NCBI RefSeq assembly: GCF_041435015.1
Contig: NZ_CP107989.1
Coordinates: 8,928,001-8,992,000 of the forward strand
DNA: 64,000 nt
From: Streptomyces canus
GTDB taxonomy: Bacteria > Actinomycetota > Actinomycetes > Streptomycetales > Streptomycetaceae
Direction: 5' to 3'
Shown: piece by piece, positions 1-27,189 of the stretch
How the letters are laid out: each line of letters begins with the position of its first letter
Numbering within the stretch: position 1 is the stretch's first letter
Made by a program: the position numbers and the translations under genes
Notes under the pieces: generated by a model
What the model was told of the DNA's origin: nothing
Databases searched by the model: none
What the model saw: the letters and a program-made list of their open reading frames with translations, nothing else

Positions 1-1449
1 TCACCGGGCCCAGTCGACGGTGAAGACGTTGGCGATGTCGCTCGGCAGGGAGGACGGGACGGTGATGTTGATCTTTCCGTCGCGGCGGGTCCAGCGCAGA
101 CTGCCGCTCGTGCCGAGCAGTCGAACCCGGGACGCGGCGCTGATGGGGATGTCGCCGGGCACCGAGAGAGTGCCGCTGGGCCTGCCCAGCACGATGATGT
201 TGAACTTGCCCGGGGAGACGGTGTAGCGGATGCCGAGCGGGCTGCCCTCCTCCTCCGCGCGCACCCAGGGCGTCGATCCGTAGATCGCGGGGCCGTTGAC
301 CTTCAGCCAGGCGCCGATGTCCTTCAGCCGCTTCTGCATGACCTCGGGGATCGTGCCGTCCGGCCTGGGGCCGATGTTGAGCAGCAGGTTGCCGTTCTTG
401 CTGACCACGTCGGCGAGCAGCTGGATCAGGAACTCGGAGGTCTTGTAGTCCTCGTCCGGCTCGTGCTTGTTGTAGCCCCAGGAGTAGCCGATGGTCATGC
501 AGCATTCCCACTTCTGGGGGTCCATCGTGGGGTTGGTGCGCTGCTCGTACGTCGCGAAGTCGAAGTGGGTGTCGAACCGGTCGTTGATCACGACACCCTT
601 GGGGTGCGTACGGTTCTTGGCCCGGTTGTAGTAGTGGGCCATGGGTTCTTCGCTGCGCCACGGCGGGTTGCCGGTGGGCCGGAACCACTGTCCGTCGGCC
701 CAGAGCAGCTCCGGGTCGTAGCGGTCGATGATCTCGTACAGCTGCTTGAGCTCGTAGTCGCCGACGTAGTCCTGGACCGGCTTGTAGCCGGTCATCGGGA
801 TTTCCTGGTCGGTGTAGAAGTTGCGCATCGGCCGGCCGATCGCCGGGTTGAAGAACTCGCCGAGCGAGTAGTACAGGCCCGGCCGCACGGTGCCGCGCTT
901 GCGGGCCGCGGTCATCAACTCACCGACGAGGTCACGCTTCGGGCCGTACGCCAGGGAGTGACGGTCCGTCACCTTGCTGGGGTAGAGGGCGAATCCGTCG
1001 TGGTGCTTGCTGGTCAGCGCGAAGTACTCGGCGCCCGCCTGCTCGAACAGTCGCACCCAGGAGTCGGGGTCGTACTTCTCGGCCTTGAACTGGGGGATGA
1101 GGTCGTCGTAGGTGACGTTCTCGCCGTAGGTGTCGCGGTGGTACTTCCACTCGGCGCTGTCCTTGGTGCTCTGGTACCACAGGTACCACTCGGAGGCGCT
1201 TCTCGGTGTCGCGCCGCCGATCACCGAGTAGATGCCCCAGTGCACGAAGATGCCGAACTTGGCGTCCTTGTACCAGCGCGGCACCGGGTGGGTGTCGAGG
1301 GATGGCTTGGTGGGCTGGTAGTCGGGGATGCCCGAGGCGGCGACCGTCGCACCCTGGGTGAGGGCCTGGGCGGTGCCGGGCGGGGCCAGCAGCACCGCAC
1401 CGCCGAGGGCGGCAGCGGTGGTCATGAAGTGTCTGCGGTTGACTGCCAT
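1..1449 (-). CDS. Secreted alpha-L-fucosidase, GH29 family
   Basis: A 482-residue protein likely to hydrolyse alpha-L-fucosyl residues from glycans outside the cell. The N-terminus has a twin-arginine signal (RRHFM at residues 5-9, hydrophobic stretch, AQA cut near residue 29), so export by the Tat route is expected. The GH29 barrel shows KFGIFVHWG near 64-72, KHHDGF at 148-153 and the nucleophile motif LLWADGQW with D252. The C-terminal part (about 395-482) fits the usual GH29 beta domain. It is the last gene of a tightly packed run, starting 11 bases after the stop of the SGNH hydrolase gene. The stop codon is the first three bases of the window, so the gene is complete. The family call is firm; linkage specificity (alpha-1,2/3/4/6) cannot be read from sequence. 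Confidence 0.93.
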   Translation of the reverse strand: MAVNRRHFMTTAAALGGAVLLAPPGTAQALTQGATVAASGIPDYQPTKPSLDTHPVPRWYKDAKFGIFVHWGIYSVIGGATPRSASEWYLWYQSTKDSAEWKYHRDTYGENVTYDDLIPQFKAEKYDPDSWVRLFEQAGAEYFALTSKHHDGFALYPSKVTDRHSLAYGPKRDLVGELMTAARKRGTVRPGLYYSLGEFFNPAIGRPMRNFYTDQEIPMTGYKPVQDYVGDYELKQLYEIIDRYDPELLWADGQWFRPTGNPPWRSEEPMAHYYNRAKNRTHPKGVVINDRFDTHFDFATYEQRTNPTMDPQKWECCMTIGYSWGYNKHEPDEDYKTSEFLIQLLADVVSKNGNLLLNIGPRPDGTIPEVMQKRLKDIGAWLKVNGPAIYGSTPWVRAEEEGSPLGIRYTVSPGKFNIIVLGRPSGTLSVPGDIPISAASRVRLLGTSGSLRWTRRDGKINITVPSSLPSDIANVFTVDWAR

Positions 1450-1460
1450 CTATGGGCCTC

Positions 1461-3608
1461 TTACTCGTGGGTGGAGAAGGAGTCGAAGAGTGCGGTCGTG
1501 ATCTGACCGGGGTAGTTGAGGTTGACCGCGCTCGCGACCAGACCCGCCTCGCCGGTGCCGCTCGCGGACGGCACGGTGGCGGTGGCCACCTGCTGCCAGT
1601 CGGTGCCGTCGGAACTGGCGTACGCGGTGTAGCTGGTGCCGTCGCGGACGAGCTTCAGCCAGGCGGGGTGGTACGAACTCCCGCCCCCGGCCCAGGTGTC
1701 GAGCTTCCCGTCACCGTCGCTGTCGGTCAGGAACTCCAGGCCGTACTGCGCGGACATGGTGAGCACCGCGTAACCGCCGGCCTCGGGCGCCGTGAGGTCG
1801 TTGGCCACGGCGATCCCCGCCTTGGCGGACGGGCCGCTGCCGGTCTGACCGATGACCCGGGCGGTCACCGTGCCGGACGGCGGCGCGGCGTCGGCGAGGT
1901 AGACCGCCGCCTTCTCGTCCTTCCAGCCGGACAGGTCCTGGCCGCCCGCCCAGATGGCGAACTGGTCGCCGTTCTGGGCGTATTGGGCCATCTCGGTCGT
2001 GGTGGCGGTCGTCAGATACGGCGCCCGCACCTCGGACGGAGCGGGGGTCACCGTGGCGTCCACGCTGTCGGAGTCGTGGCGTGTCCGGCCGTCCTGGACG
2101 AAGGAGGTGCGTACGCCGATCGCGTGGGTGCCCCAGATGGCGTCGGCCGCCGGCGTCACCGTCCAGGTGACCTCGGCGCTGTCGCCCGGGGCGAGGGAGC
2201 GGGTCCTCGTGCTGCCGACCGGTTCGGCGGACCAGCCGTCGGGGAGGCCGAGGCGAGTGCTGACCTGAGTGACCGCCCTGGGACCGGTGTTGGTGACGGT
2301 CGACGTGATCTCCGTGCCGTCGCCACCGGCTTGCAGGGTCGGCCGGTAGGGGGTGATCCGGACGCGGGCCGAGGGGCAGTCCCGGGCCACCCGCAGGCCG
2401 GCGAGGTCCACCGCGTCGGCGAAGGCCTTCATCCCGGTGTCGTTGGGGTGCAGATGGTCCCCGGAGTCGAACGCGGCACCGTAGCGGGTGGGATCGTCCG
2501 GATCCCGCACGGCCTTGTCGAAGTCGGCGTAACCGTCGAAGACACCGCCGTCACGGACGAACGTGTTGACCTTCTGCCGGTCGGCCTCCTTGGCCTCGGT
2601 CCACCAGTCGCCCCAGCCGCGATACGGCACGACCGTCGCGCCGATCACCCGCAGCCCGCGTTCGTGGGCGCGGCGCACGAACTCCTTCATGCCGTCGATC
2701 ACCTGGTCGCCGGTGGCGCCGCCCCAGCTGAGGTCGTTGACGCCCTCGAAGAGGACCACTGTCCTGGCGCCCGGCTGCGACAGCACATCGCGCTCCAGCC
2801 GGTCCAGCGCCGACGGGTTGCCGTCCACGCCTGCGGTGATCCGGTTGCCGCTGATGCCCTCGTTCAGCACCCCGGCGGTGGTCGAGCAGGCCGACAGCCG
2901 CCCCGCCAGATAGTCGGGCCAGCGCCGGTTGGCGTTCGACGTGGAGGCCGCGCCGTCGGTGATGGAGTCGCCGAGCGCCACCACGGCACCCGCCGCGTTG
3001 CCACCCTGTACGTCGACACCGGTCAGGAACGGGAAGGTGGAGTCGGTCTTGGTGAAGGCGTCCCCGCCGGCGTCCGAGGCGTGGTCGCCGCCGCCGTCGG
3101 GTGTCCAGTAAACGGTCTGGAGGCCCATCCAGTGCTGGCTGATGTGGGTGAGCCGACCGGGGAAGTACAGGCTGACGACCAGGTCGCTGCGGGCGGGCAC
3201 GGTGAGCCGGACCTGATCGCTGGCCGCCTGCTCGCCGGCCGCGATCGTCACTCCGCTCTTCCCGCCGAACCGTAGCTTCTGCGGCTTCGTGACGGCGGAA
3301 CCGCCATCGCGGAGTCCGACCGTCGCGTGTCCGATCGTCACCGCCTCGGTGGTGAAGTCGTTGGTCAGGCGGATGCGCACGCTCGACCCACCCGCGCTCA
3401 CCCGCACCGGTATCCGCACCGTCACCTCCGAGGTGCCCGGGTCGTACGCGGCGTGTTGGGCGGTCGCCCACGTCCCCGTCCAACCCGGCTGCGCGGTCTC
3501 GGCAGCGGCCGGCGCCACCGGAAGCAGGGCTGCCACCGTGGCCGCCAGCGCTGTGGCCAGGACTGCGAATCTTCGGTGCCCCCGCAGGTGTTCAAGCCGT
3601 CCGGACAC
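1461..3608 (-). CDS. Secreted SGNH/GDSL hydrolase with NEW3-like and C-terminal beta-sandwich module
   Basis: A 715-residue secreted esterase-like protein. A Sec signal peptide ends near residue 36 (APAAAE). The SGNH domain (about 40-410) has GDSITDG with S215, GN at 254-255, GVND at 289-292 and DHLHP with D384 and H387, so the catalytic set is complete. Residues 413-520 form a NEW3-like beta domain (LPDGW, TWTVTP). Residues about 528-715 form a beta-sandwich module with a DSDGDGK calcium-type loop that reappears in the GH31 protein encoded at 16246-19266. The start is GTG with AGGAGG just upstream. It likely removes O-acyl (for example acetyl) groups from the glycan attacked by the neighbouring hydrolases, but the substrate is unknown. 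It begins 9 bases after the preceding SGNH gene stops. Confidence 0.88.
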   Translation of the reverse strand: MSGRLEHLRGHRRFAVLATALAATVAALLPVAPAAAETAQPGWTGTWATAQHAAYDPGTSEVTVRIPVRVSAGGSSVRIRLTNDFTTEAVTIGHATVGLRDGGSAVTKPQKLRFGGKSGVTIAAGEQAASDQVRLTVPARSDLVVSLYFPGRLTHISQHWMGLQTVYWTPDGGGDHASDAGGDAFTKTDSTFPFLTGVDVQGGNAAGAVVALGDSITDGAASTSNANRRWPDYLAGRLSACSTTAGVLNEGISGNRITAGVDGNPSALDRLERDVLSQPGARTVVLFEGVNDLSWGGATGDQVIDGMKEFVRRAHERGLRVIGATVVPYRGWGDWWTEAKEADRQKVNTFVRDGGVFDGYADFDKAVRDPDDPTRYGAAFDSGDHLHPNDTGMKAFADAVDLAGLRVARDCPSARVRITPYRPTLQAGGDGTEITSTVTNTGPRAVTQVSTRLGLPDGWSAEPVGSTRTRSLAPGDSAEVTWTVTPAADAIWGTHAIGVRTSFVQDGRTRHDSDSVDATVTPAPSEVRAPYLTTATTTEMAQYAQNGDQFAIWAGGQDLSGWKDEKAAVYLADAAPPSGTVTARVIGQTGSGPSAKAGIAVANDLTAPEAGGYAVLTMSAQYGLEFLTDSDGDGKLDTWAGGGSSYHPAWLKLVRDGTSYTAYASSDGTDWQQVATATVPSASGTGEAGLVASAVNLNYPGQITTALFDSFSTHE

Positions 3609-3617
3609 GGTTCCTCC

Positions 3618-4838
3618 TCAGGTGCAGCCGCGGCCGAGGCCGAGCGACGTCAGGTCGATGGAGTCGGCGAATGCCTTCATCCCGGTGTCATTGGGATGCA
3701 GATGGTCACCGGAGTCGTATGCGGCGCCCAGCCGGCGCGGATCCGCCGGGTCCCGGACCGCCCGGTCGAAGTCGGCGTAGTCGTCGAAGACCTTGCCGGA
3801 GGCCCGGACGAACGCGTTGACCTGCTGCCGTCGCGTCTCCGTCTCCTCGGTCCAGCCACCCCAGGTGAAGTCCTTGTACGGGGTGATCGTGGCGCCGACG
3901 ACCCGCAGCCCGCGCTGGTGGGCCCGGTGGGCGATCGTCTTCATCCCGGCGATGATCTGCTCGGCACTCGCCCCGCCGAGATCGTTGATCCCCTCGAAGA
4001 GGATCAGAGTCCGCGCCCCCGGCTGGGAGAGCACGTCCCGGTCGAGCCGGTCGAGCGCCGAGGGGTTGGTCGCGGTCCCGGCGGTGATCCGGTTGCTGGT
4101 GATGCCCGCGTTGAGCACTCCGGCGCCGGGCAGGCAGGCGTTCAGCCGGGCCGACAGCAGATCGGGCCAGCGCTGGTTCGTGTCGGCCGTCGAATAGGAC
4201 CCGTCGGTGATCGAGTCGCCGAGCGCCACCACCGACCCGGTCCTCGGCGCGGTCACGTCGACACCGCTGAGGAACGGCCAGCTCGTGGTGGTCCAGGTGT
4301 AGGCGTCGCCGGAGGTGTCGGCGGCGTGGTCACCCGCACCGTAGTCCGTCCAGTACACGGTCTGCTGCGCCCACCAGTGATCGGTGATGTGCGTGACCCG
4401 GCCGGGCAGATGGAGACTGACGACCAGGTCGGACAGGGCCGGCACAGCGAGTCCGACCGGGTCGCTCACAGCCTGGCCGCCCGCCGGGATGGTGACCGCG
4501 CCCTTTCCACCGAACCGCAGGTCGTACGGGCGGGCCACGGCGGAACCGCCGTCGCGCAGACCCACCGTTGCGTGCCCGATCGTCACCGGGTCGGTGGCGT
4601 AGGCGTTGGTCAGCCGGATGCGTACGGCTGAGCCGCCGACGCTGGTGTGCACCGGCATCCGTACCGTCACCTCGGACATCCCCGAGACCTCGTAGTGCTC
4701 ACTGGCCGCCGTCGCCCAGGTTCCGGTCCAGCCGCGCCGAGCCTCCTGCTGACCGGCCTCGGCGGGTGCCACCGTCCCGGCCACGACGGCCGAGACCGCC
4801 ACGAGCAACGCCGCGAGTCTGCCGCGTATCCCACGCAT
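3618..4838 (-). CDS. Secreted SGNH/GDSL hydrolase, single domain
   Basis: A 406-residue paralogue of the catalytic part of the next gene, sharing the GWTGTWATA opening and the same block order. A signal peptide ends near residue 28 (PAEAG). Catalytic blocks are GDSITDG with S209, SN in the GITSN block, GIND, and DHLHP with D378 and H381. It lacks the NEW3 and C-terminal sandwich modules of its neighbour and ends soon after the hydrolase fold. Two side-by-side SGNH enzymes in one operon suggest two acylation positions, or one free and one substrate-anchored form. That is inference. Carbohydrate esterase activity is likely from context; lipase activity cannot be excluded. Confidence 0.87.
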   Translation of the reverse strand: MRGIRGRLAALLVAVSAVVAGTVAPAEAGQQEARRGWTGTWATAASEHYEVSGMSEVTVRMPVHTSVGGSAVRIRLTNAYATDPVTIGHATVGLRDGGSAVARPYDLRFGGKGAVTIPAGGQAVSDPVGLAVPALSDLVVSLHLPGRVTHITDHWWAQQTVYWTDYGAGDHAADTSGDAYTWTTTSWPFLSGVDVTAPRTGSVVALGDSITDGSYSTADTNQRWPDLLSARLNACLPGAGVLNAGITSNRITAGTATNPSALDRLDRDVLSQPGARTLILFEGINDLGGASAEQIIAGMKTIAHRAHQRGLRVVGATITPYKDFTWGGWTEETETRRQQVNAFVRASGKVFDDYADFDRAVRDPADPRRLGAAYDSGDHLHPNDTGMKAFADSIDLTSLGLGRGCT

Positions 4839-4849
4839 CTGACGCCCCT

Positions 4850-6859
4850 TTACTGTGCCGCGCCGGTGCGCGAGAGAGCCTGGTACGCCTTGGTGGCGCC
4901 CTTGGCCTTGAGGTTCACGAATGCCGGTGTCACTCCGAGCGGCGCCGCGTACCCCTTGAGCGTCACGGGGCCGCGGACGACCTTGCCGGTGGTGACGTCA
5001 CGCCACGTTCCGGTGGGCAGGAAGACGTCCCGGGTGGTGCCTTCGTCGAGCTTTGGTGCGGCCAGCACGGCGGGGCCGAGCATCCACTCGTCGGCGACCG
5101 TGTAACTCGCCTCGTCCTTCGGGAAGTCGAAGAACAGCGGCCGCATGATCGGATCGCCGGTCTTCAGGGTGCTCTGCACCTGGTCCCAGATGTAGGGGGC
5201 GAGCTTCTCGTGCGTCTTGATCGCCTGCCGGTAGAGGTCGACCGTCTCGCGGCCGTACCCGACCCACTCGCCGGTCGTCGCGTCCCGCACGCCGGTGGGC
5301 GAGGTCGAGGCGTACATCAGCGGCATCAGGGACGCCGCCTGCGCCCAGCGGGCCAGGACCTGCTTGGTCGGCGGCGGGTAGCCGAGCGAGCCGCCGATCA
5401 TGTCGGTCTCGACGAACGGGTAACCGATCGTGGAAACCGCCAGGTTGGCCGAGACCGCGGCGCGCAGCCCCGCGAACGTGGTCGGCTTGTCGGCCGTGCG
5501 GGTGGCGAAGCCCTTGGCCTGCGCGGCGTTCCACGCGACCCGCAACCCCGCCCCCTGCTGGTCGAACGCGTCGGCCAGCTCGGTGCCGTACTTCACGTAG
5601 TCGGCGCGGGTGGCCCCCGGGTAGGGGGCGCACCGGTCGTCGAAGAAGGCGGTGTCGAACTTGAACCCGGCGACCCCCAACTCGCTTGTCTGCGCCTTGA
5701 GATCGTCGGTGTACCACTGCCGGGCGGCCGGGTTCGCCAGGTCGATCAGCCCGGTCCGGTGGCCGTTCCACCAGGTGAACAGGCACGGCTTGGACGGGTC
5801 GGACGGGTCCTTCAGCAGATACCCGTTGTCGACGGCTTCGGAGAAGTTGGCGGCGGTCTCGGGCATGTACAGGCCCGTCCACATGCCGAGGTCGAAGCCG
5901 AGGCGGCCGAGTTGCCTGGACAGCGCGGGCAGATCGGGGAAGCGTTCGCCGAAGTCGGAGGCGATCACGCTCTCCTCGATCTGCACCGCGTGCCCGCCGA
6001 GCCCGGCGCCGGCCAGCGCACGGGCCCAGGCGAGAACGTTCGCCTGGGTCTGCTCGCCGTAGAGCTGCGCCCAGGAGTTCCAGAGCGGGGTGGCGTACTG
6101 CTCGTAGGGGGTGTCGGAGCGTTCGGGCTTGCCGACCAGCGCGATGTGGTCGCGGTACACCTCGGCGGGGGTGTCCTCGACGAACACCGTGGAGGCGGCG
6201 GGTCGGTCTCCGGTGACGGTGAACTCGCCGAGCCCGTTGCCGCCGGAGTTGATCCGCACGTCCATCGGGTCGTTCGTGTCCGCCCACAGTCCGGTGGCGC
6301 TGGAGGTGTACCAGAAGGGGGAGACCACCTGGTAGGACGCCGGGCTGAACCCGGTGTCCACCACCTGCCCGGAGTCCAGCGGCCACGGCTGGACCGTCTG
6401 GTCGCTGTTCTCGCCGTGCCCGTACCAGTGCCCGGCGCTGCTGAGGTCGTACGCCGTGCTGAGCGCGTCGGCCTGTGCGCCCGACAGGGACCAGTTCATG
6501 TCGTACCGGTCGGAGCGCAGGGTGATCCGCAGATCGACGTTGACGCCCGGCAGGTCGGTGGCGGCGGTGACGCGCAGGGTGTTGCCGTCACGGGTGCTGC
6601 CGGTGACCTCCCGGACGATGTGCCAGTCGGCGCCGATCCGGAACCGGAACGCCGCGGGCGCGGTGGCCAGCACGGTCCGGCCCGCCCGTACGGTGGTGAC
6701 GGTCAACCAGTCTGTGGCGACGCGCAGTTCGTAGGTGGGTGTCGTGACGGTGACCGGCCCACCGGAGTCGGCGGCGGCCGGTGCCGTGCCGAGCAGCGGG
6801 GTGGCCAGCACCAGCGCCGCCGAGCCGCCGCGGACGGTTCGCCTCACCGTAGGCAGCAT
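4850..6859 (-). CDS. Secreted GH31 family glycoside hydrolase, short form
   Basis: A 669-residue secreted alpha-glycosidase-like protein with a signal peptide ending near residue 30. The GH31 barrel is clear: GFKFDTAFFDD carries the nucleophile D402, D457 sits where the acid/base is expected, and YPFVETDMIGG (480-490) matches the conserved DIGG block. The paralogue at 16246-19266 has QLDDKW at the substrate-binding strand, whereas this protein has QIEES (293-297), so two acidic positions are Glu instead of Asp. The specificity is unknown; GH31 includes alpha-glucosidases, xylosidases, galactosidases and alpha-N-acetylgalactosaminidases. Its ATG overlaps the TGA of the upstream GH35 gene by one base. 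A 176-bp stretch (5067-5242) is identical to part of the other GH31 gene. Confidence 0.88.
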   Translation of the reverse strand: MLPTVRRTVRGGSAALVLATPLLGTAPAAADSGGPVTVTTPTYELRVATDWLTVTTVRAGRTVLATAPAAFRFRIGADWHIVREVTGSTRDGNTLRVTAATDLPGVNVDLRITLRSDRYDMNWSLSGAQADALSTAYDLSSAGHWYGHGENSDQTVQPWPLDSGQVVDTGFSPASYQVVSPFWYTSSATGLWADTNDPMDVRINSGGNGLGEFTVTGDRPAASTVFVEDTPAEVYRDHIALVGKPERSDTPYEQYATPLWNSWAQLYGEQTQANVLAWARALAGAGLGGHAVQIEESVIASDFGERFPDLPALSRQLGRLGFDLGMWTGLYMPETAANFSEAVDNGYLLKDPSDPSKPCLFTWWNGHRTGLIDLANPAARQWYTDDLKAQTSELGVAGFKFDTAFFDDRCAPYPGATRADYVKYGTELADAFDQQGAGLRVAWNAAQAKGFATRTADKPTTFAGLRAAVSANLAVSTIGYPFVETDMIGGSLGYPPPTKQVLARWAQAASLMPLMYASTSPTGVRDATTGEWVGYGRETVDLYRQAIKTHEKLAPYIWDQVQSTLKTGDPIMRPLFFDFPKDEASYTVADEWMLGPAVLAAPKLDEGTTRDVFLPTGTWRDVTTGKVVRGPVTLKGYAAPLGVTPAFVNLKAKGATKAYQALSRTGAAQ

Positions 6860-16093: not shown

Positions 16094-16183
16094 GGGGCTG
16101 GGGTCCCTCTCTCACGGAGGTGCAGGGAGTGGTCCTCGGCGGGTCCTGGGGGGCGGGAGGACTGCCGGGAAGCGGGGATGGCC

Positions 16184-16220
16184 CCCGGCAGGCCCTCAGG
16201 GGAAGGAGGGGCCTGCCGGG
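16184..16220 (-). terminator. Strong hairpin between the two hydrolase transcription units
   Basis: A perfect 12-bp inverted repeat: CCCGGCAGGCCC at 16184-16195 and GGGCCTGCCGGG at 16209-16220, with a 13-base loop. It lies 26 bases after the stop of the long GH31 gene and about 90 bases before the GH123-like start, so it can end or attenuate transcripts entering the seven-gene operon. There is no T-tract, which is usual for Streptomyces terminators. Confidence 0.65.
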
Positions 16221-16245
16221 CAACCGGGAAGGTGATACCCGTGGG

Positions 16246-19200: not shown

Positions 19201-19266
19201 CAGCATGGCGGCGGTCAGTGCGGCAGCGAGCAACAGGCCGCCGGGACTGCTCAATCGGGCGTGCAC
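16246..19266 (-). CDS. Secreted GH31 family glycoside hydrolase, long form with NEW3-like and C-terminal module
   Basis: A 1006-residue secreted GH31 enzyme. A signal peptide covers about residues 1-35. The catalytic part (about 45-695) has QLDDKW with D326/D327, the nucleophile D437 in GLKFDTRFFDE, the expected acid/base D493 and YPFVESDMIGG at 516-526. It is followed by a NEW3-like domain (about 705-810) and a C-terminal beta-sandwich module (about 819-1006, with SDGDGK and WAGGG) also found in the SGNH hydrolase at 1461-3608. The start is GTG with AGGAGG six bases upstream. Its promoter region lies in the 356-base space before it. It is related to the short GH31 at 4850-6859, including a 176-bp identical tract. 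The exact alpha-glycoside is unknown. Confidence 0.9.
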   Translation of the reverse strand: MHARLSSPGGLLLAAALTAAMLVAPLTGSTAAATAAATSTAGPKVTRTANAVTVSVPASANTPGYTLDVATDELALTTRRAGKTVLATASGDTGALRFTTADGTWQHATGVTDWTWKNGVLTVTADSTLDGATVEARITPGADRYQLDWDVRGGAPKQLGLSYDLSSAGHWYGHGEAETPQGGPGTDQPWPLDAGEVDHPTFGPASYHVIDPFWYTSRSTGLRVDTGNVMDVALNKGKDGLGSFVVESPDTYKATVFVESTPLEVYRDYIGIVGKPTKSDAPYEQYAKPLWNSWAQFYTKVDQEKLLDYATDLHDNGLDGHTIQLDDKWESNYGNLTWDPKTFPDPKGLSKKIHDMGFDFGVWVTLWINLDSANYQYAVDHGYLLMDAKDKTKPCDVTWWNGEAGIIDLANPEAKAWYEGNLKSLMDTYDIDGLKFDTRFFDERCAPREGSQVTDYQKLGTQLADEFDLQGAGIRVHWNKTAHEAGFVTRQVDKGTGWDSLRASASQNLAISTIGYPFVESDMIGGSGGQPAPTKDVLVRWAQSASLMPLMYASTSPVDTNDTTTGQKVDYDQETVDLYRQAIKTHEKLAPYIWDQVQSTLKTGDPIMRPLFFDFPKDEASYTVADEWMLGPAVLAAPKLSTGATRSVHLPPGTWYDVNQGTVIRGPQTLKGYAAPLGVTPAFVNLKARGADKAIRALKRDDAPAASVLITPDAPATDAGKPFQVTTDVTNWSTGTIKTVKAALNLPDGWSAKSAGPTTASSLKNGATLTTTWTVTPAEDARWGSHDLTGTASYTGSKGATKVSDTVQAKVKAAPSSVQAPYLTTDTTSEDPQYAQAGDQFAIWAGGQDLSGWKDEKGVIYRDDAAGEKATVQAQLVSQSSASPVGKAGVALANDLTAPEKGGYAVLVMTQSYGLEFMTDSDGDGKLDTWAGGGATYHPAYLKLTRDGTTYTAYAGKDGQTWSQVGTAQVPSASGTEDAGMVASAANVNYPGQDIEAVFSGFTVTS

Positions 19267-19622
19267 TCGTGTCCTCCTGTCGGACAGGACGGTGGCTCAG
19301 GAGCGGCGGTGCGTGGTGCCGATGGCGTGCGGAGCGCACGGTCACGACGAAGCGCGGTGCCCGCCGGGGCTGCGGTCTGCTTGATTCTGCGTGCAGATGC
19401 AAGATTCGAAGCGATTTCGCACATGCTCTTGCGGGAACCGCCACCTGTCAACATGCGGGGCACACGGCGTCCCGAGTGCCCCGAGGGCTGTCGTGGAGCG
19501 GCTGTTGTCCCTGGTGGCGGTCGGTCACGGGGCCCGCCGACCGGCCTCGGCGGGCCCGGAAACCGTTCGTAACGGGCACGTAAATTCTGCGGCCCCCGAG
19601 ATCCTTCCGGGGGGACGCCCGG
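19267..19622. other. 356-base regulatory space upstream of the long GH31 gene
   Basis: No convincing gene is seen here. The minus-strand leader of the GH31 gene contains an AGGAGG ribosome site (just upstream of 19266), a GAATCAAGCA-like element read on the minus strand (19378-19387) that resembles motifs before the importer and the aldolase, and a GCAAGA/TCTTGC inverted repeat (19399-19404 and 19427-19432) enclosing TTCGAAGCGATTTCG. The SIS gene stops at its right end on the same strand, so read-through from that gene is possible. Confidence 0.5.
19378..19387 (-). promoter_or_regulatory. Candidate DeoR operator, GH31 side
   Basis: On the minus strand this reads GAATCAAGCA, matching 8 of 10 bases of CAATCGAGCA found before the importer gene. 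It lies about 110 bases upstream of the GH31 start. The match is weak by itself; position and the two stronger copies nearby make it worth listing. Confidence 0.3.
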
Positions 19623-20522
19623 TCAGGCCAGGATCACGGAACGGGTCAGATGGCGCGGATTGTCCGGGTCCAGCCCGCGTGCCGAGGCGAGGGCGGAGGC
19701 CAGCCGGTGCACCACGACCAGATCTGCCAGCGGGTCCCGGCCGAGTGCCACCAACTGCCCGCCGGTGTCCGCGATCTCGTCGGCGAGACCGGACGGCAGG
19801 GCCGCCGGGTCCCCGAACCACCAGGCGACGCGGCCGGGTGCGGTGACGCTGATCGGACCGTGCCGGTACTCCATCACCGGGTAGGCCTCGGTCCAGGCGC
19901 CCGCCGCCTCGCGCAACTTCAGCGCCGCCTCCTGGGCGATCCCGTAGGCCCAGCCCTGCCCCAGGAAGGTGAACTGCTCGGCCTCCAACACCCCGGCCGG
20001 CAGCGGTTCGTCCAGCGCAGCGCGCCCCTGCTGCGGCAGATGCTCCAGGTCCTCGCCCAAGTGGGCCCGCAGGAGCACCAGTTCGGTGCTGGCGAACCGG
20101 GTCTGGACGACCGAGGTCTCGTCGGCGAAGTCGAGCACGACGACGGCGTCCGCCGGCCCCGTCACCGGTGACTGCGGCACCGCGGTCACCGCGGTCGTGG
20201 GAGTGTGCCCGCGCAGTCGGCCGAGCAGCTCCAGTACTTCGGTCGTGGTGCCGGACCGGGTCAGCGCGACCACCCGGTCGTAGGCCCGCCCGTCCGGCAT
20301 CTCGGAGGCGGGGAAGGCATCGGTCTCACCGTGGCCGCCCGACTCCCGCAGTGCCGCGTACGCCTGGGCGATGAACCAGGACGTCCCGCAGCCGACGACG
20401 GCGACCCGCTCGCCGGGCCGGGGCAGCGAGGCGGAGACGGGACCGTCGGGCCGCCGGGCCAGTGCCACGGCCTGCCTCCAGCAGTCGGGCTGCGTGGCGA
20501 TCTCGATGTCGGTCTGACTCAT
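19623..20522 (-). CDS. SIS-domain sugar isomerase/deaminase, AgaS-like
   Basis: A 299-residue cytoplasmic protein with SIS folds. Visible family blocks are GCGTSWF (about residue 50), the phosphosugar-binding LTRSGTTTEVLELL, and in the second half QGWAYGIAQEAALKLREAAGAW followed by YRHGP. AgaS-type enzymes convert galactosamine-6-phosphate to tagatose-6-phosphate with loss of ammonia; GlmS-like and FrlB-like roles are also possible. The start at 20522 (MSQTDIEI) is chosen because a GGGGAG ribosome site precedes it and upstream codons are not protein-like. It is divergent from the sugar importer and lies on the same strand as the hydrolases. With the aldolase at 24859 it supports a GalNAc/galactosamine route. 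Confidence 0.75.
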   Translation of the reverse strand: MSQTDIEIATQPDCWRQAVALARRPDGPVSASLPRPGERVAVVGCGTSWFIAQAYAALRESGGHGETDAFPASEMPDGRAYDRVVALTRSGTTTEVLELLGRLRGHTPTTAVTAVPQSPVTGPADAVVVLDFADETSVVQTRFASTELVLLRAHLGEDLEHLPQQGRAALDEPLPAGVLEAEQFTFLGQGWAYGIAQEAALKLREAAGAWTEAYPVMEYRHGPISVTAPGRVAWWFGDPAALPSGLADEIADTGGQLVALGRDPLADLVVVHRLASALASARGLDPDNPRHLTRSVILA

Positions 20523-20616
20523 CGGGGACTCCCCTCTCGGGCGCACGGCGTGACCGATACGTGATGCGACGGCCCTTGACACTGTGCGCGTTTCATTGAG
20601 CATCATGTCGTTCGAT

Positions 20617-20675
20617 GATTGATAGCACCAGCAATCGAGCATAAACAAGCAAGCGGGCGCGCAATCAGGCGAGCA
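20617..20675. promoter_or_regulatory. Candidate DeoR operator region between SIS and importer genes
   Basis: The 194-base divergent space holds GATTG (20617-20621) and CAATC (20632-20636), an inverted repeat with 10 bases between. The right arm extends to CAATCGAGCA (20632-20641). A partial direct copy, GCAATC-AGGC-GAGCA, lies at 20661-20675. The CAATCGAGCA-TAAAC block resembles CAAACGAGCA-AAAC before the aldolase gene. DeoR regulators commonly use repeated sites of this type. Confidence 0.45.
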
Positions 20676-20716
20676 CGCGCTTGACCAAGCACGCCATGCG
20701 TGCGGAGAGGTACTCC

Positions 20717-21976
20717 GTGAAACGGCACCTCGCGGGCCTCGCCGGGGGTACGGCCCTGGCACTGGCCCTCACCGGCTGCGGCAAGGGCAGCTCCTCGGAC
20801 AGCGGCGGATCCGACGGCAAGACGATCAGGTTCGTCGCGGCGAAGTACGACGACGACACCCAGGCCTACTGGACTGCGCTGATCAAGGACTTCGAAAAGG
20901 CGAACCCCGGCTACCGGGTGAACCTCGAAGTCGTCGACTGGGAGCAGATGGACTCCAAGGTCAAGACGTACGTCCAGACCAAGCAGGAACCGGACGTCCT
21001 CAACTACAACAAGTTCTCCGACTTCGCCCGGGACGGCCTGGTCTACAAGGCGCAGGACGTCGTCTCCCCCAAGGTGCTGGCCGACTTCCTCCCGCTGTTC
21101 CGGCAGAAGGCGCAGTACAAGGGGGCCCAGTACGGGCTGCCCTTCATCTCCAGCGCGCGCCTGTTCTTCTACAACAAGGACATCTTCGCCAAGGCGGGCA
21201 TAGCCCGGCCGCCGTCCACCTGGGCCGAGGTCGAGGCCGACGCCAAGAAGATCAAGCAGGCCGGTTACATCGGCCTCGGGCTGCCCCTGGGCCCCGAGGA
21301 GGCGCAGGCCGAGTTCCAGATCTGGGCGATGAACAACGGCGGTGGCTGGACCGACGCCTCGGGCAAGTGGGCGATCGACCAGCAGGCCAACGTCGACACG
21401 CTCAGCTACCTGCGGAAACTGACGAAGGAAAAGGTCACCCAGCCCAACCCGGAGGCCACCAACCGCAAGGACGTCTTCAACCAGTTCGCCCAGGGCAAGA
21501 TCGGCATGCTCAACGGGGCGGTCTTCATGCGGAAGGGCTTCATCGACCCGGTCGACGCGAAACTGAACTACGGCGTCGCGGCGCTGCCCAGCAAGGACGG
21601 CAGCACCCACAAGACGCTCGGCGTGCAGGACTACCTCGTCGCGTTCAAGAAGAGCGACGGGTCGAACAAGGCGGGGGTGAAGAAGTTCCTCGACTTCTTC
21701 TACCAGAAGGAGAACGCCGCCAAGTTCGTCTCCACCGAGGGGTTCCTGTCGGTCACCGAGTCGGCTGGTGCGGTGCTCAGCTCCGACAGCAAGAACGCCG
21801 CCTACTACAAGCCGTTCGTCGACGCCCTCTCCAGCGCCGAGTTCGCCCCCGCCGACGACCCGGCGTGGGCCGCGGTCGACGGTGCGGTGAAACAGCGCAT
21901 CGGCACGGGGGTGGCGGGCGGCGACCCGGCCAAGGTCCTGGGCGAGATCCAGAAGACCGCGCAGAAGGGCGACTGA
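20717..21976 (+). CDS. Sugar ABC transporter substrate-binding lipoprotein
   Basis: A 419-residue family 1 extracellular solute-binding protein. The GTG at 20717 is chosen over upstream in-frame starts because GGAGAGG lies seven bases before it and it opens a proper lipoprotein signal: VKRH, a hydrophobic run and LTGC with the lipid-carrying C21. The mature protein has the usual periplasmic-type binding fold, with a DWEQMDSKVKTYVQTKQEPDVL segment and GLPFISSARLFFYNKDIF. It would deliver mono- or oligosaccharide to the two permeases that follow five bases downstream. Given the flanking hydrolases, SIS enzyme and aldolase, the ligand is probably a galactose- or GalNAc-type sugar. That is inference. 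Confidence 0.9.
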   Translation: MKRHLAGLAGGTALALALTGCGKGSSSDSGGSDGKTIRFVAAKYDDDTQAYWTALIKDFEKANPGYRVNLEVVDWEQMDSKVKTYVQTKQEPDVLNYNKFSDFARDGLVYKAQDVVSPKVLADFLPLFRQKAQYKGAQYGLPFISSARLFFYNKDIFAKAGIARPPSTWAEVEADAKKIKQAGYIGLGLPLGPEEAQAEFQIWAMNNGGGWTDASGKWAIDQQANVDTLSYLRKLTKEKVTQPNPEATNRKDVFNQFAQGKIGMLNGAVFMRKGFIDPVDAKLNYGVAALPSKDGSTHKTLGVQDYLVAFKKSDGSNKAGVKKFLDFFYQKENAAKFVSTEGFLSVTESAGAVLSSDSKNAAYYKPFVDALSSAEFAPADDPAWAAVDGAVKQRIGTGVAGGDPAKVLGEIQKTAQKGD

Positions 21977-21981
21977 CTTCG

Positions 21982-22947
21982 GTGGCCGTACACGATGTCA
22001 CCGCAAGCGCCACCGGGGCCGAACACCCGGCCCCGGTGGCGCCGGCGCCGTCCCCGCCGCGCCGCCGTCGCAGGACATGGCGCGCGCTCGAACCCCTGTT
22101 GTGGCTCGGGCCCGCGACCCTCCTCATCCTGACCATGGTCGTCTGGCCCATCATCGAGATGATCCGGACGTCCCTGACGAAGGTGAGCTCCACCGGACTG
22201 TCCGAGGGGTTCGCCGGCCTTGGCAACTACACCGATCTGTTCGCCGAGGGCGACCTGCCCGGAGTGCTGCTGCGCACCGTCGTGTGGGTCGTCGGGGTCG
22301 TCACCGTCACGATCCTGGTCTCCCTCGGCCTGGCCCAACTGCTGAACGCGAGCTTCCCGGGGCGTCGGCTGGTGCGGTGGGCGATGATCGTGCCCTGGGC
22401 CTCGTCCGTGCTGATGACGGCGCTCATCTGGCGCTGGATGCTCAACAACTTCTACGGCGTGGTCAACCGGCTGCTCATGGACATCGGGGTGCTCGACGCC
22501 CCCGTCAACTGGCTGGCCCATCCGGGGCAGGCCCTCGTGGCGATGATGGGCGTGGCGGTGTTCGTCTCACTGCCGTTCACCTCGTTCGTCCTGCTGGCCG
22601 GTGTGCAGAGCATCCCCGGCGAGGTCTACGAGGCGGCGCGGGTGGACGGCGCAGGCCCGGTCCGCGCCTACCTGAGCATCACCCTGCCGCTGCTGCGGCC
22701 CTCGCTGGTGGTCGCAGCGATCATCAACGTCATCAACGTGTTCAACTCGTTCCCCATCATCTGGGCCATGACGCGCGGAGGCCCCGGCTTCAGCACCGAC
22801 ACGACCACCACCTACCTGTACAAACTCGCCTTCGACAACCAGTCGGTGGGGGAGTCGGCCGCCATGGCCGTCGTCAACTTCGGGCTGGTCCTCGCCGTGG
22901 TGCTGGTCTATCTGCGCGTCGTCCGCCGACAGGAGGACTCCGCGTGA
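21982..22947 (+). CDS. Sugar ABC transporter permease, MalF type
   Basis: A 321-residue inner-membrane permease with about six membrane spans. The GTG at 21982 follows the lipoprotein stop by five bases. The N-terminus is cytoplasmic and rich in Pro and Arg. The first span is near LLWLGPATLLILTMVVW. The EAA loop that docks the ATPase is visible as EAARVDGAGPVRAYLSI followed by TLPLLRPS. It overlaps the next permease gene by four bases (GTGA), so the pair should be made together. No ATPase gene follows; in Streptomyces a shared MsiK-type ATPase commonly serves such importers. Confidence 0.9.
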   Translation: MAVHDVTASATGAEHPAPVAPAPSPPRRRRRTWRALEPLLWLGPATLLILTMVVWPIIEMIRTSLTKVSSTGLSEGFAGLGNYTDLFAEGDLPGVLLRTVVWVVGVVTVTILVSLGLAQLLNASFPGRRLVRWAMIVPWASSVLMTALIWRWMLNNFYGVVNRLLMDIGVLDAPVNWLAHPGQALVAMMGVAVFVSLPFTSFVLLAGVQSIPGEVYEAARVDGAGPVRAYLSITLPLLRPSLVVAAIINVINVFNSFPIIWAMTRGGPGFSTDTTTTYLYKLAFDNQSVGESAAMAVVNFGLVLAVVLVYLRVVRRQEDSA

Positions 22948-23831
22948 GCAGAACCGCCGTCAGTCCCCGCACCTCCGCGCCGCGCAGGAGGCGGCCACGA
23001 CCGATGAAACTGCGCACCGTCCTGCTCACCGCGGCCGGCTGGCTGGTGGCGCTCGCGTTTCTCGCGCCCTACGCGGAGATGCTGCTGACGGCGCTCAAAC
23101 CGACGCCCGAACTGATGAAGTCCCCGCCGTCCTATCTGCCTTCGCACTGGCAGTGGTCGAACTTCACGCAGATCTGGTCGCTCACCGACCCGCGCGTCGG
23201 GGACGCGCTGCTGTTCTCGCTGTACGTCGCCGGGGCGTCGACGCTGCTCGCCCTGGCCGTCGGGCTGCCCGCCGCGTACTACACCGCCCGGCACCGTTTC
23301 CGCGGGCGCGGCGCCTTCCTGATCCTCGTACTCGTCACCCAGATGTTCGCGCCGACCGCGCTCCTGGTCGGTATCTACCGGGAGATGGTCAGCCTCGACC
23401 TGACCGACACCGCCGAGGGCCTCATCCTCGTGAACGCGGCGTTCAACCTGCCGTTCTGCGTGTGGATCCTCAACGCGTACTTCGCGAGCATCCCCAAGGA
23501 ACTGGAGGAGGCGGCCTGGCTCGACGGCACCGGGCGGTTCGGCGCCCTCACCCGTGTGATCCTGCCGCTCGCGATGCCCGGTGTGGTGACCGCGCTCGTC
23601 TACACCTTCATCGGCGCGTGGAACGAGTACGTCGTGGCGCTCACGATCACCTCGTCCGGCAACCGGATGACGCTGACCAGGGCGATCCCCGGCTTTGTCA
23701 CCTCGTACCACGAGCAGTGGCAGTACCTGTTCGCCACCTCGATCGTCGCGATCGTGCCCGTGGTCGTGCTGTTCGTCTTCGTGGAGCGCTACCTCGTCGC
23801 CGGCCTGACGGCGGGCGGCGTGCGCGGATGA
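22944..23831 (+). CDS. Sugar ABC transporter permease, MalG type
   Basis: A 295-residue partner permease with about six membrane spans and the EAA loop EEAAWLDGTGRFGALTRVI. The GTG start at 22944 has AGGAGG at 22931-22936 and overlaps the stop of the first permease. The domain LSLYVAGASTLLALAVGLPAAYYTA is the usual second-span region of MalG-type proteins. It is the last gene of the importer operon and converges on the DeoR gene. No nucleotide-binding subunit is encoded nearby on either strand. Confidence 0.9.
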   Translation: MSRTAVSPRTSAPRRRRPRPMKLRTVLLTAAGWLVALAFLAPYAEMLLTALKPTPELMKSPPSYLPSHWQWSNFTQIWSLTDPRVGDALLFSLYVAGASTLLALAVGLPAAYYTARHRFRGRGAFLILVLVTQMFAPTALLVGIYREMVSLDLTDTAEGLILVNAAFNLPFCVWILNAYFASIPKELEEAAWLDGTGRFGALTRVILPLAMPGVVTALVYTFIGAWNEYVVALTITSSGNRMTLTRAIPGFVTSYHEQWQYLFATSIVAIVPVVVLFVFVERYLVAGLTAGGVRG

Positions 23832-23893
23832 CCCCGGGGTCCGCGTCGGAGCCGGGGCCGTCGCGGGGGCCGGTACGGGAGCGGCGCCCGGTG

Positions 23894-24682
23894 TCAGGCG
23901 CGGATGACCTCCACACCGGCCGCCTCGAACGACTCGGTCAGTTCGTCCGAGGCGGCCTTGTCGGTCACCAGGACGTCGATGTCCGCCACCGGGCAGATGC
24001 GGGCGAAGGCCCGCCGGTCCAGCTTGGAGGAGTCGGCGACCGCGACGACCTGCTGCGCGCGGCGGGCCAGTGCTCGGTTGATGCTGGCCTCGCCCTCGTG
24101 GTGGGCGGTCGCCCCGTGGGCCACGTCGATGGCGTCCACCCCGATGAAGACCTGGTCCAGTGCGATCTCCGCGAGCAGTTCGGTGGCCAGCGGTCCGATG
24201 AGCTCATAGGACGCAGGCCGGGCCACCCCGCCGGTCACCACGAGCTTGACGTGACGCCGTACGACCAACTCGTTGGCGATGTTCAGGGCATTGGTCACCA
24301 CGGTGACCGCTGTCTCCGCGCCGCCGGAACTCAGGTCGGCGCGGGTGGCCAGAGCTCGCGCCACCTCGGTGGTCGTGGTGCCGCCGTTCAGCCCCACGAC
24401 CGCGCCGGCCTTCACCAGCCCGGCGGCCGCGTCCGCGATCCGCTCCTTCTCCGGAGCCTTGCGTGCGGCCTTGTAGCGCAGGGGCAGGTCATAGGCGATC
24501 GCGTTGATCACGGCTCCGCCGTGCGTGCGGGTGACCATCTGCTGGCGGGCCAGCTCGTCCAGGTCGCGCCTGATGGTCGCGGCGGAGACGCCCAACTCCT
24601 CGGCGGCCGACTCGACTTCGATCCGCCCGTCGCGCGTCAGCATCTCCAGCAGCGCGCTCCACCGGGCCTGCGGTGCCGCCAT
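23894..24682 (-). CDS. DeoR/GlpR family transcriptional regulator
   Basis: A 262-residue repressor-type protein. Residues about 6-58 form the DeoR helix-turn-helix (RWSALLEMLTRDGRIEVESAAEELGVSAATIRRDLDEL), followed by the HGGA motif. The C-terminal sensor domain (about 75-250) has GLNGGTTTTEVARAL and FIGVDAIDVAHGATAHHEGE, the fold that binds phosphorylated sugars. It is divergent from the ketose-bisphosphate aldolase gene and convergent with the importer. The likely role is AgaR-like: repression of the importer, aldolase, SIS and perhaps hydrolase genes until a sugar phosphate appears. Candidate sites are listed separately. Confidence 0.9.
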   Translation of the reverse strand: MAAPQARWSALLEMLTRDGRIEVESAAEELGVSAATIRRDLDELARQQMVTRTHGGAVINAIAYDLPLRYKAARKAPEKERIADAAAGLVKAGAVVGLNGGTTTTEVARALATRADLSSGGAETAVTVVTNALNIANELVVRRHVKLVVTGGVARPASYELIGPLATELLAEIALDQVFIGVDAIDVAHGATAHHEGEASINRALARRAQQVVAVADSSKLDRRAFARICPVADIDVLVTDKAASDELTESFEAAGVEVIRA

Positions 24683-24745
24683 GTCTCACAACTCCCTGTC
24701 GGTGGTGTGCGCCGCGAAGTGCGCACCTCAATGAAACCACAGCGC

Positions 24746-24782
24746 ATGATTGGGTGCTTTATGGACGCCAAACGAGCAAAAC
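24746..24782. promoter_or_regulatory. Candidate DeoR operator between repressor and aldolase genes
   Basis: The 176-base divergent space contains ATGATTG (24746-24752) and CAAACGAGCA (24769-24778) followed by AAAC. Both elements also occur, in the same order, before the importer gene (ATGATTG at 20615-20621 and CAATCGAGCA at 20632-20641). Such shared motifs suggest one regulator for both promoters. The spacing between elements differs by six bases. Confidence 0.45.
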
Positions 24783-24858
24783 CCTGCACTTCCCGCAAAC
24801 TTCTGCCTCTGCCTCTGCCGCTGTCACGGCCCTCGCACGCCGCGACAGGAGGCCGTCC

Positions 24859-25713
24859 GTGCCGCTGACTCCCACCGCCGACCTGGTGAGCTCCGCGTAC
24901 CGCGACGGAGAGGCCGTCGGCGCGTTCAACGTCATCACCCTGGAGCACGCCGAGGCCGTGGTCACCGGGGCGGAAGCCGCGGGCCGCCCGGTCATCTGCC
25001 AGATCAGCGAGAACGCCGTGCGGTTCCACGGCAGCCGGCTCGCCCCGATAGCCCGCGCCACCGCAGCGCTCGCCGAGGCGGCCGCCGTGCCCGTGGCGCT
25101 GCACCTCGACCACGTCACCGACGAAGCGCTGCTGCGCCGCGCCGCGGACTGCGGCTTCGGATCCGTCATGTTCGACGCGTCCGCGTTGCCGCACGCCCAG
25201 AACGTCGCCGCCACGCGCGCGGCGGCCCAGTGGGCGCACGCACAGGGTCTGTGGCTGGAGGCGGAACTCGGCGAGATCGGCGGCAAGGACGGAGTGCACG
25301 CACCCTCCGCACGCACGGACCCCGACCAGGCGCGCGACTTCGTGTCCGCCACCGGGGTGGACGCACTGGCCGTCGCGGTCGGCAGCTCCCACGCGATGAC
25401 CACGCGCACCGCCCGGCTGGACCACGGTCTCATCGCCCGCCTCGCCAAGGCGGTCCCCGTGCCGCTGGTCCTGCACGGCTCGACGGGCGTGCCCGACGAG
25501 GAGCTCCGGCAGGCGGTGGCGGCCGGCATGGTCAAGGTCAACATCGGTACGGCACTGAACGCCGCCTTCACCGGCGCGGTCCGCGACACACTCACCGCCG
25601 CGCCCGCGGCCGTCGACCCCCGGCCCGCCCTCACCGCTGCGCGCCGGGCGATGGCCGATGCCGTGACCTCGGCGCTGCGGACCCTGTCGGGCGGTGGGTA
25701 CCGGAAGGGGTGA
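24859..25713 (+). CDS. Class II ketose-bisphosphate aldolase, tagatose/fructose-bisphosphate type
   Basis: A 284-residue zinc-dependent aldolase of the GatY/KbaY/Fba family. Zinc-site and catalytic blocks are LHLDHV (about residue 80), EAELGEIGG (about 134-142), HGSTGVPDEEL (about 208-218) and VKVNIGTAL. The GTG at 24859 is chosen because AGGAGG (24847-24852) lies six bases before it; the longer in-frame reading would add an unlikely leader. It would split tagatose-1,6-bisphosphate (or fructose-1,6-bisphosphate) to triose phosphates, the last step of an Aga/Gat-like pathway. The required hexose-phosphate kinase and GalNAc-6-phosphate deacetylase are not in this window. Confidence 0.85.
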   Translation: MPLTPTADLVSSAYRDGEAVGAFNVITLEHAEAVVTGAEAAGRPVICQISENAVRFHGSRLAPIARATAALAEAAAVPVALHLDHVTDEALLRRAADCGFGSVMFDASALPHAQNVAATRAAAQWAHAQGLWLEAELGEIGGKDGVHAPSARTDPDQARDFVSATGVDALAVAVGSSHAMTTRTARLDHGLIARLAKAVPVPLVLHGSTGVPDEELRQAVAAGMVKVNIGTALNAAFTGAVRDTLTAAPAAVDPRPALTAARRAMADAVTSALRTLSGGGYRKG

Positions 25714-25767: not shown

Positions 25768-25821
25768 TCAGGCCTCCTGACCGACGATCAGTACCCGTAC
25801 CTCGTCGAAGGGCTGGGTCAC
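25768..25821 (-). CDS. 17-codon minigene coupled to the beta-propeller gene
   Basis: A GTG overlaps the stop of the preceding gene (GTGA) and opens a frame of 17 residues, VTQPFDEVRVLIVGQEA, before TGA. The overlap looks like normal translational coupling, yet the peptide is too short to be a known protein. It may be the remnant of a downstream gene truncated by a deletion, a real micropeptide, or chance. Confidence 0.2.
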   Translation of the reverse strand: MTQPFDEVRVLIVGQEA

Positions 25822-26903: not shown

Positions 26904-27189
26904 ACCGATCACCTCCGTGACGTCTTTGTCCCAGACACCGGCCAGTCTGCACCCCGCCACTGACAGTCACCTCTGGAAAGGCCTTCATCGCAGGTCAGGG
27001 CGGGGATGGTAACCGTTTGCGGCGATTGACGGGCGGCTTTCGGCAAGATGCCCGCAGCGGCGGGCGGCCCGGTGGGACCGTCGTGACGGAGAACTCGCCG
27101 TGAGCCGTGAGCATCGAGGACGGCTCCCCCGTATGGGAGGTCGGTCCGGCATGTTCGTGCGCCCGTCGCTCATGAGGAGGATGCCTTCG

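Follow-up and report, generated by a model that had tools for sequence, protein, structure and literature searches.

Which glycan does Streptomyces canus take apart with a row of secreted-looking glycosidases and esterases that are encoded next to a sugar importer and a DeoR-family repressor? We address this question for the locus that opens a 64,000-nucleotide stretch of the 10.7 Mb genome (C1:8928001-8992000, hereafter the window, to which plain coordinates refer) and that extends beyond its left edge. Gene order, enzyme families, conserved catalytic residues and signal-like N-termini can be read from the DNA for the eight enzymes of the window and for a glycoside hydrolase (GH) of family 89 beyond its edge. 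We consider it fairly probable that they form one mobile, DeoR-associated Streptomyces locus whose exo-acting enzymes degrade a branched aminosugar glycan, likely a fucosylated animal or protist glycoconjugate. To our knowledge, few complex-glycan loci have been worked out in soil actinomycetes, and we found no published account of this one in the literature searched, most subscription papers lying outside that search.

An earlier note on this DNA had described eight secreted enzymes next to an isomerase (here SIS, after its domain), a sugar importer (of the ATP-binding cassette type, ABC), a DeoR repressor and a class II aldolase, and Pfam matches and hydrophobic N-termini confirm all of them in their places. 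For the eight enzymes, the top Pfam hits have E-values from 4e-22 (GH31a) to 4.6e-108 (GH29), which is far beyond chance, and each enzyme starts with a hydrophobic stretch (best mean Kyte-Doolittle value over 12 residues of 1.78-2.88). They all lie on the minus strand. The first of them, behind a promoter region with a conserved TTGACA (19267..19465, minus strand), is GH31b (16246..19266), a predicted alpha-galactosidase (8j53, E 1.6e-52) with NEW3 and sub-threshold DUF1349-like modules. It is followed by GH123 (14225..16093), of the beta-N-acetylgalactosaminidase type, with the residue pair D417-E418 (Pfam 2.2e-90; 5l7v, E 2.3e-72), and by two beta-galactosidases assigned by Pfam, GH35b (10581..14228) and GH35a (6859..10584), both with NEW3 and NPCBM modules. 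Then come GH31a (4850..6859; Pfam and alignment), the acetyl-xylan-esterase-like esterase SGNH2 (3618..4838), the esterase SGNH1 (1461..3608; Pfam), again with NEW3 and sub-threshold DUF1349-like modules, and the alpha-L-fucosidase GH29 (1..1449), with a twin-arginine-type signal (NRRHFM). Three paralogous pairs can be recognized within the locus: SGNH1/SGNH2 (64% identical), GH31a/GH31b (59%) and GH35a/GH35b (49%).

The locus is longer than the earlier note, which had called it complete-looking, could see: the operon runs past base 1 into the adjoining 20 kb on the left (L002, whose base 20000 abuts base 1 of the window). There, still on the minus strand, the GTG start of CBMx1 (window 1..4, on to L002:19051; about 317 residues) overlaps the GH29 stop, and CBMx1 is in turn overlapped by CBMx2 (L002:18149-19054; about 300 residues), neither having a visible signal peptide. 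Behind them lies GH89 (L002:15030-18128), an alpha-N-acetylglucosaminidase of 1032 residues with a twin-arginine-type N-terminus. GH89 is the likely end of the operon, since the genes downstream of it are shared with just one of the ten relatives examined; a BadF-type kinase gene near GH89 (L002:13184-14152) was excluded from the operon on the same ground.

The catalytic details agree with these family names. GH123 reaches 303.8 bits (Pfam cut-off 23.1), and it is the single GH123 match in the whole S. canus genome. Its Asp-Glu pair aligns with that of 5l7v at 417-418 and is kept in all 40 loci of the survey described below. Such a pair serves the substrate-assisted cleavage of beta-linked N-acetylhexosamine (HexNAc). 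We predict an enzyme that releases beta-linked N-acetylgalactosamine (GalNAc), or beta-HexNAc, and that could act on a terminal or on an internal residue. The GH89 protein aligns with CpGH89 of Clostridium perfringens over residues 67-718, has three NAGLU domains and retains both expected glutamates, which we take to be the catalytic residues. GH29 matches the T. maritima fucosidase 1hl8 (E 6e-85), and the nucleophile Asp is present in 15 of 16 loci, the sixteenth being unreadable.

Do these genes travel together? A scan for GH123 in one genome per GTDB species returned 40 loci, 27 of them in Streptomyces/Wenjunlia, one on a Rhodococcus-labelled contig, two in Bacillota and ten in Bacteroidota. 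The earlier note had proposed to look for conserved synteny of the enzyme block with agaS across Streptomyces. In 26/26 Streptomyces/Wenjunlia loci that include this flank, GH31b adjoins GH123, one of the matches being partial. GH35b occurs in 24 of the 27, GH35a and the SIS gene (at 70% identity or more) are each found in at least 10, GH31a in at least 9, the importer in at least 15, DeoR in at least 21 and the aldolase in at least 7; several loci have incomplete flanks (three for DeoR), so these counts are lower bounds. GH89 lies on the same contig as GH123, within about 17 kb, in all 24 Streptomyces/Wenjunlia genomes searched, S. canus included, a search that left out four of the 27 loci other than that of S. 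canus (L008, L014, L024 and L025). In two Wenjunlia loci, GH31b, GH123 and GH89 are the only locus enzymes, one of these loci also having DeoR and SIS. GH31b-GH123-GH89 is the conserved heart, to which some loci add GH35a, GH31a, one of the esterases and the importer/SIS/aldolase block.

Only a minority of soil Streptomyces carry the locus, which is an accessory and mobile trait. Any GH123 match was present in 9 of 150 sampled Streptomyces genomes, and a full-length one of at least 80% identity in 5, including S. canus itself. The GH123-GH31b stretch occurs on four of 72,556 plasmid records (NZ_CP109439.1, NZ_CP108366.1, NZ_CP109357.1 and NZ_CP109481.1), all from Streptomyces, of 1.0-2.35 Mb and typed as mobilizable; the first of them, a linear plasmid of 1.56 Mb, carries the unbroken order from GH89 to the aldolase. 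Outside of these genera, the Rhodococcus-labelled contig (JOAA01000007.1) has a GH123 that is 64% identical to that of the window, followed by GH89 (41-42% identical) and with GH29 nearby, and in Scopulibacillus (L033) the gene behind GH123 is a GH31 with a different set of modules. In Bacteroidota, a second GH123-type match lies in the same stretch at nine of the ten loci, and the contexts (seven proteins from four loci) consist mainly of further GH123 genes, some with GEVED and secretion-tail domains, and name no glycan.

The best Protein Data Bank match of GH31b is the GH31 alpha-galactosidase 8j53 (182 bits), human MYORG reaching 175 and the best alpha-xylosidase, MeXyl31, 97. PMC9491548 names nine galactose-binding residues of MYORG (W321, D353, D354, W426, K461, D463, R504, R517 and D520), which we mapped by hand onto the alignments of both paralogues. 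GH31b has all nine equivalents (WDDWKDRRD), both in the window and in 26/26 loci. GH31a reads WEEWKDRRD in the window and in nine of ten loci (the tenth being unreadable), so that it keeps seven of the nine and falls outside the MYORG-type set, Glu-Glu replacing Asp353-Asp354. As these two positions bind O4 and O6 of galactose, the sugar specificity of GH31a is likely changed. Both paralogues match alpha-galactosidases better than xylosidases and keep the galactose-binding Lys (KFD). The MYORG pocket leaves no room for an N-acetyl group, according to the same paper, and alpha-GalNAc is therefore an unlikely substrate of GH31b. MYORG and bacterial GH31 alpha-galactosidases (7qqf, 8j50 and 8j53 taken together) are the closest known enzymes; GH31b has the pocket residues of MYORG and differs from this group by a signal peptide and by its NEW3 and DUF1349-like modules.

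How would the released sugar be used? The importer is encoded on the plus strand by genes for a binding protein (SBP; 20681..21976), permease A (about 21982..22947) and permease B (22944..23831). It is flanked by the SIS-domain phosphosugar isomerase/deaminase (19623..20522, minus strand, 299 residues) and, beyond DeoR, by the class II ketose-bisphosphate aldolase (24859..25713, plus strand); the starts of these two genes were set shorter than the longest open reading frames (ORFs), judging from the start codon, an A/G-rich motif before it and the alignment. The earlier note had taken them for an AgaS-like isomerase and a tagatose-type aldolase, the core of GalNAc use, and neither assignment holds. 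The SIS protein scores 29.6 bits against the AgaS family TIGR02815 (cut-off 529.2), and no match over this cut-off was found in the genome. Among the curated models the SIS protein fits GlmD best (83.4 bits, cut-off 580), so that it leans towards GlmD/GlmS. The aldolase passes the general model TIGR00167 only (223.8 against 215.6) and stays below the tagatose-bisphosphate aldolase models TIGR01858 (207 against 443.55), GatY (211.7 against 383) and KbaY (164.5 against 542); the solved structures nearest to it belong to fructose-bisphosphate aldolases (174 bits, compared with 161 for AgaY). A second SIS-aldolase pair is encoded at C1:9.147 Mb, each member being 62% identical to its locus counterpart, and a SIS homologue with an E-value no worse than 2e-100 was found in 18 of the 20 Streptomyces genomes inspected among the 141 that lack the locus; the locus pair therefore probably duplicates a near-core function. 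Remnants of SIS genes can be found at loci without an intact one (L022 6240-6431, G018:C577:58694-59040, G013:C150:8555-8855 and G005:C3:1546915-1547301).

The missing steps have candidates elsewhere, which is a second reason not to call the locus complete. A ROK kinase, a NagA deacetylase and a PfkB hexose kinase are encoded together at C1:5.594-5.597 Mb; NagA is over its cut-off, PfkB is over that of TIGR03168 and under that of lacC (tagatose-6-phosphate kinase), and the ROK protein is over no curated kinase cut-off. Within the locus, SIS and the aldolase are thus the only candidate members of an aga pathway. In PMC12680351, NagA of Streptomyces coelicolor deacetylates GalNAc-6P at 1.03e4 per M per s, about tenfold below N-acetylglucosamine-6P (GlcNAc-6P). 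GalNAc use with the genes of this genome is possible. Like the GalNAc catabolism of Escherichia coli and Shewanella, the S. canus locus has a DeoR repressor nearest to the AgaR model, a class II aldolase and a SIS protein, but it lacks an AgaS over cut-off, a kinase and a deacetylase, and it has an ABC importer.

The putative connection between the enzymes and these metabolic genes is the repressor. The DeoR protein (23894..24682, minus strand) is nearest to the AgaR model NF040755, the best of the 14 models listed, at 206.8 bits, below the cut-off of 260. A suggestive candidate operator, TCGAGCATAAACAAGCAAGC, lies upstream of the importer (20635..20654, plus strand), and the importer promoter carries GAGCATAAACAAGCA. 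TTGAC is found upstream of GH31b in 26 of 27 regions, and several GH31b promoters contain similar repeats spaced by 10 bp, such as ATGAGCAGAAATGAGCATGA in five loci. Matrix scores rise above the shuffled 95% level in 16/27 GH31b promoters and in 6/22 DeoR/aldolase promoters, the matrix being rough, as it comes from nine distinct importer sites, several of them mis-registered, in closely related loci. Seven loci without the importer still have DeoR, a point in favour of a common regulator, and altogether the sequences are suggestive of a shared DeoR regulon.

From these elements, a route can be proposed. Outside the cell, the SGNH enzymes would take off acyl groups, GH29 fucose and GH35 beta-galactose, while alpha-GlcNAc would be removed by GH89, beta-GalNAc (or beta-HexNAc) by GH123 and alpha-galactose by GH31b. 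A released sugar would enter through the ABC importer, the genome-borne ROK kinase, NagA and PfkB would phosphorylate and deacetylate it, and the SIS protein and aldolase of the locus, or their genome-borne paralogues, would complete the way to triose phosphates, DeoR responding to a phosphosugar.

Several observations weigh against this scheme and against an animal or protist source. The GH89 gene reads as broken in two of the 24 genomes, split in two in one (G016:C2:2110477-2113445) and with a stop inside in the other (G018:C577:71193-74141), which means either decay of the operon or sequencing errors in these two. The locus can persist without the importer/SIS/aldolase block, whose link to the glycan is loose, because SIS is found at 10/27 loci and the importer at 15/27 (some flanks being cut), with SIS fragments elsewhere. 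The DeoR motif is weak before GH31b in the window itself. In the window, it is no more frequent than expected by chance: the single match is the site from which the pattern was derived, and since 46 of 100 shuffles also contain at least one match at two mismatches or fewer, this count is no evidence. The nearest relatives of SGNH2 are acetyl xylan esterases (7tog, E 9e-60; see PMC9105624), which points to a plant glycan. The animal alpha-galactosides tested in PMC9491548 were not cut by MYORG, and Pfam found no sialidase family, GH101 or protease among the scanned operon genes. Finally, the host names are mostly those of soil or plant-associated streptomycetes.

Three more specific or competing proposals for the substrate can be weighed. 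That it is a mucin-type or globo-type animal glycan, reached through soil animals, faeces or insects, is conceivable but doubtful. The enzyme set would fit its fucose, beta-galactose, beta-GalNAc, alpha-galactose and alpha-GlcNAc caps, and the GH89 of Akkermansia cuts the GlcNAc-alpha-1,4-galactose of stomach mucin, as PMC11790493 reports. The genomic context in Virgibacillus sp. YIM 98842 (L032) points the same way: GH123, 48% identical over 91% of the query, lies near a GH31 and an ABC permease, as in S. canus, together with GH101, a BNR protein, GH112 and a ROK kinase. GH101 and GH112 mark the use of mucin core 1, so this locus is of the mucin core-1 type. It differs from that of S. canus by these two families, by the DUF5110 and F5/8 modules of its GH31, and by the absence of a GH89, GH35 or GH29 match in the stretch examined. 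Against a mucin or globo substrate stand the lack of GH101 and sialidase, to which the lack of a sulfatase family can be added for the same scanned genes, and, for globo-type glycans, the report in PMC9491548 that MYORG does not cut galactose-alpha-1,4-galactose. In Bacteroides thetaiotaomicron, BT4240-50 is a polysaccharide utilization locus for mucin O-glycoproteins, according to PMC11992087; both systems have a galactosidase, an enzyme that releases GalNAc and a connection to GalNAc metabolism, but BT4240-50 is a SusD-type system with its own GalNAc kinase and a mucin peptidase, and we found none of these in the locus of Streptomyces.

An exopolysaccharide of bacterial or fungal origin, with alpha-galactose, GalNAc, GlcNAc, fucose and O-acetyl groups, in place of an animal glycoconjugate, seems to us rather unlikely. 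Polymers of this kind occur widely in soil and frequently carry O-acetyl groups, which would suit the two esterases, and the lack of protease, sialidase and GH101 speaks for them; however, Pfam found among the scanned operon genes no family of endo-acting glycanases or lyases that would open the polymer, and the relative in Virgibacillus belongs to a locus of the mucin type. The last proposal, a locus for xyloglucan or another hemicellulose in which GH29 would remove fucose, GH35 galactose, GH31 xylose and SGNH acetyl groups, resembles a hemicellulose set and could draw on several plant-associated host names and on pectate lyases 7-9 kb away, but it is improbable and was dropped as a first choice, because GH31b keeps its complete galactose pocket in 26/26 loci, the Pfam scans found no endo-xyloglucanase or beta-glucosidase family among the scanned genes, no alpha-xylosidase is apparent (GH31b being of the galactose type and GH31a altered), and GH123 and GH89 would have no role in it.

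The preference of the earlier note over xyloglucan thus stands for a fucosylated, acylated glycan of galactose and, in wider terms than those of the note, HexNAc, on the GH123 Asp-Glu pair, the GH31b pocket, the GH89 gene of the operon and the GH101/GH112 context in Virgibacillus. Its narrower GalNAc reading is partly supported: the GH123 pair in 40/40 loci and the mucin-type Virgibacillus locus speak for it, while the AgaS and tagatose aldolase assignments have failed. Its direction was right and its AgaS-tagatose argument wrong, the most informative additions being GH89 and the two signal-less modules, to which we now turn.

What are CBMx1 and CBMx2 doing between two enzymes with twin-arginine-type N-termini? 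The NEW3 and DUF1349-like matches of CBMx1 are both below the Pfam cut-off. Structure models of both proteins (predicted local distance difference test, pLDDT, 86.6 for CBMx1 and 89.9 for CBMx2) gave domain-level Foldseek matches. The C-terminal half of CBMx1 resembles a DUF1349-type fold, matching 3mep, which we take to be a DUF1349 protein, at a target template modelling (TM) score of 0.69 and rank 35, behind top rows that are low-TM matches; that of CBMx2, which starts with a NEW3-like part, matches AziU3 at a target TM of 0.74 and rank 1. Homologues of both are often annotated as 'hypothetical protein' or 'beta-glucosidase'.

Both genes stand before GH89 in 20/20 regions from other genomes, and behind GH29 in the 19 where the stretch includes GH29; these regions were drawn from the 23 other Streptomyces/Wenjunlia genomes with GH89, leaving out G016 and two Wenjunlia, whose loci are without CBMx1 and CBMx2. 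By eye, twin arginines are present in 19/19 readable GH29 and 20/20 GH89 N-termini, and GH31a of the window also fits a loose RR-x-hydrophobic pattern. Among 5.8 billion proteins, CBMx1 had 85 matches and CBMx2 125, of which 64 and 108, mostly full-length, entered the hydropathy count, shorter or multidomain ones being dropped. A mean hydropathy of at least 1.8 in the first 45 residues is reached by 1/64 CBMx1 and 0/108 CBMx2 homologues, to be compared with the 1.78-2.88 of the eight enzymes; at 1.5, these counts become 9/64 and 1/108, and the cut-off is not sharp, as a binding-protein control reaches just 1.71. The hydrophobic stretches printed fall in the NEW3 strand, after residue 20, and a Tat-like pattern (for twin-arginine translocation) occurs in 1/108 CBMx2 homologues.

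A signal-less partner encoded beside a twin-arginine protein is the arrangement of Tat hitchhikers, and both ORFs show it in 20/20 regions. We tentatively propose, as a less likely possibility, that the locus makes a multi-subunit extracellular glycosidase for a glycan core of alpha-galactose, beta-GalNAc and alpha-GlcNAc: CBMx1 and CBMx2 would be translated from start codons that overlap or closely follow the preceding stop, would fold in the cytoplasm onto GH29 and GH89, and would be exported together with them by Tat. Social-amoeba or other protist glycans built on alpha-GlcNAc may be named as a speculative source. The plain alternative is that both proteins stay in the cytoplasm. Hitchhiker export is known for PaoABC of E. 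coli, as described in PMC4273604, where signal-less subunits are likewise encoded beside a twin-arginine partner; the Streptomyces proteins differ in being predicted sugar-binding-type modules beside glycosidases. Our literature search returned no paper joining carbohydrate-binding module (CBM), twin-arginine and hitchhiker. We also examined whether GH29 and CBMx1 could be joined by programmed frameshifting, because CBMx1 keeps the same relative frame in 19/19 readable junctions and in S. canus itself (offsets 5, -7, 2 and 11, all 2 mod 3); no slippery heptamer was visible by eye in two junction types, which makes it unlikely.

Two neighbouring regions of the window may be mentioned. Just past the aldolase, a gene at 25818-26960 encodes a BNR/sortilin-type propeller without a clear signal peptide and with a weak match to an F510_1955 glycosylhydrolase (70 bits, cut-off 175). 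Further on, at 32571-36261, two pectate lyases (PF03211 and PF00544), together with a PHB-esterase-type protein that has a cellulose-binding domain, form a plant cell-wall set that is separate from the glycan locus.

The conserved GH31-GH123-GH89 core predicts that streptomycetes with this locus meet a glycan that contains alpha-galactose, beta-GalNAc and alpha-GlcNAc. It gives the MYORG-type enzymes a bacterial context, which may point to their natural acceptor, and the enzymes of the locus could become tools for trimming alpha-GlcNAc and GalNAc glycans. The signal-less CBM pair, for its part, is a compact and testable case for the co-export of sugar-binding subunits; if Tat co-export is true, it would provide a detachable binding module for a glycan with this core.

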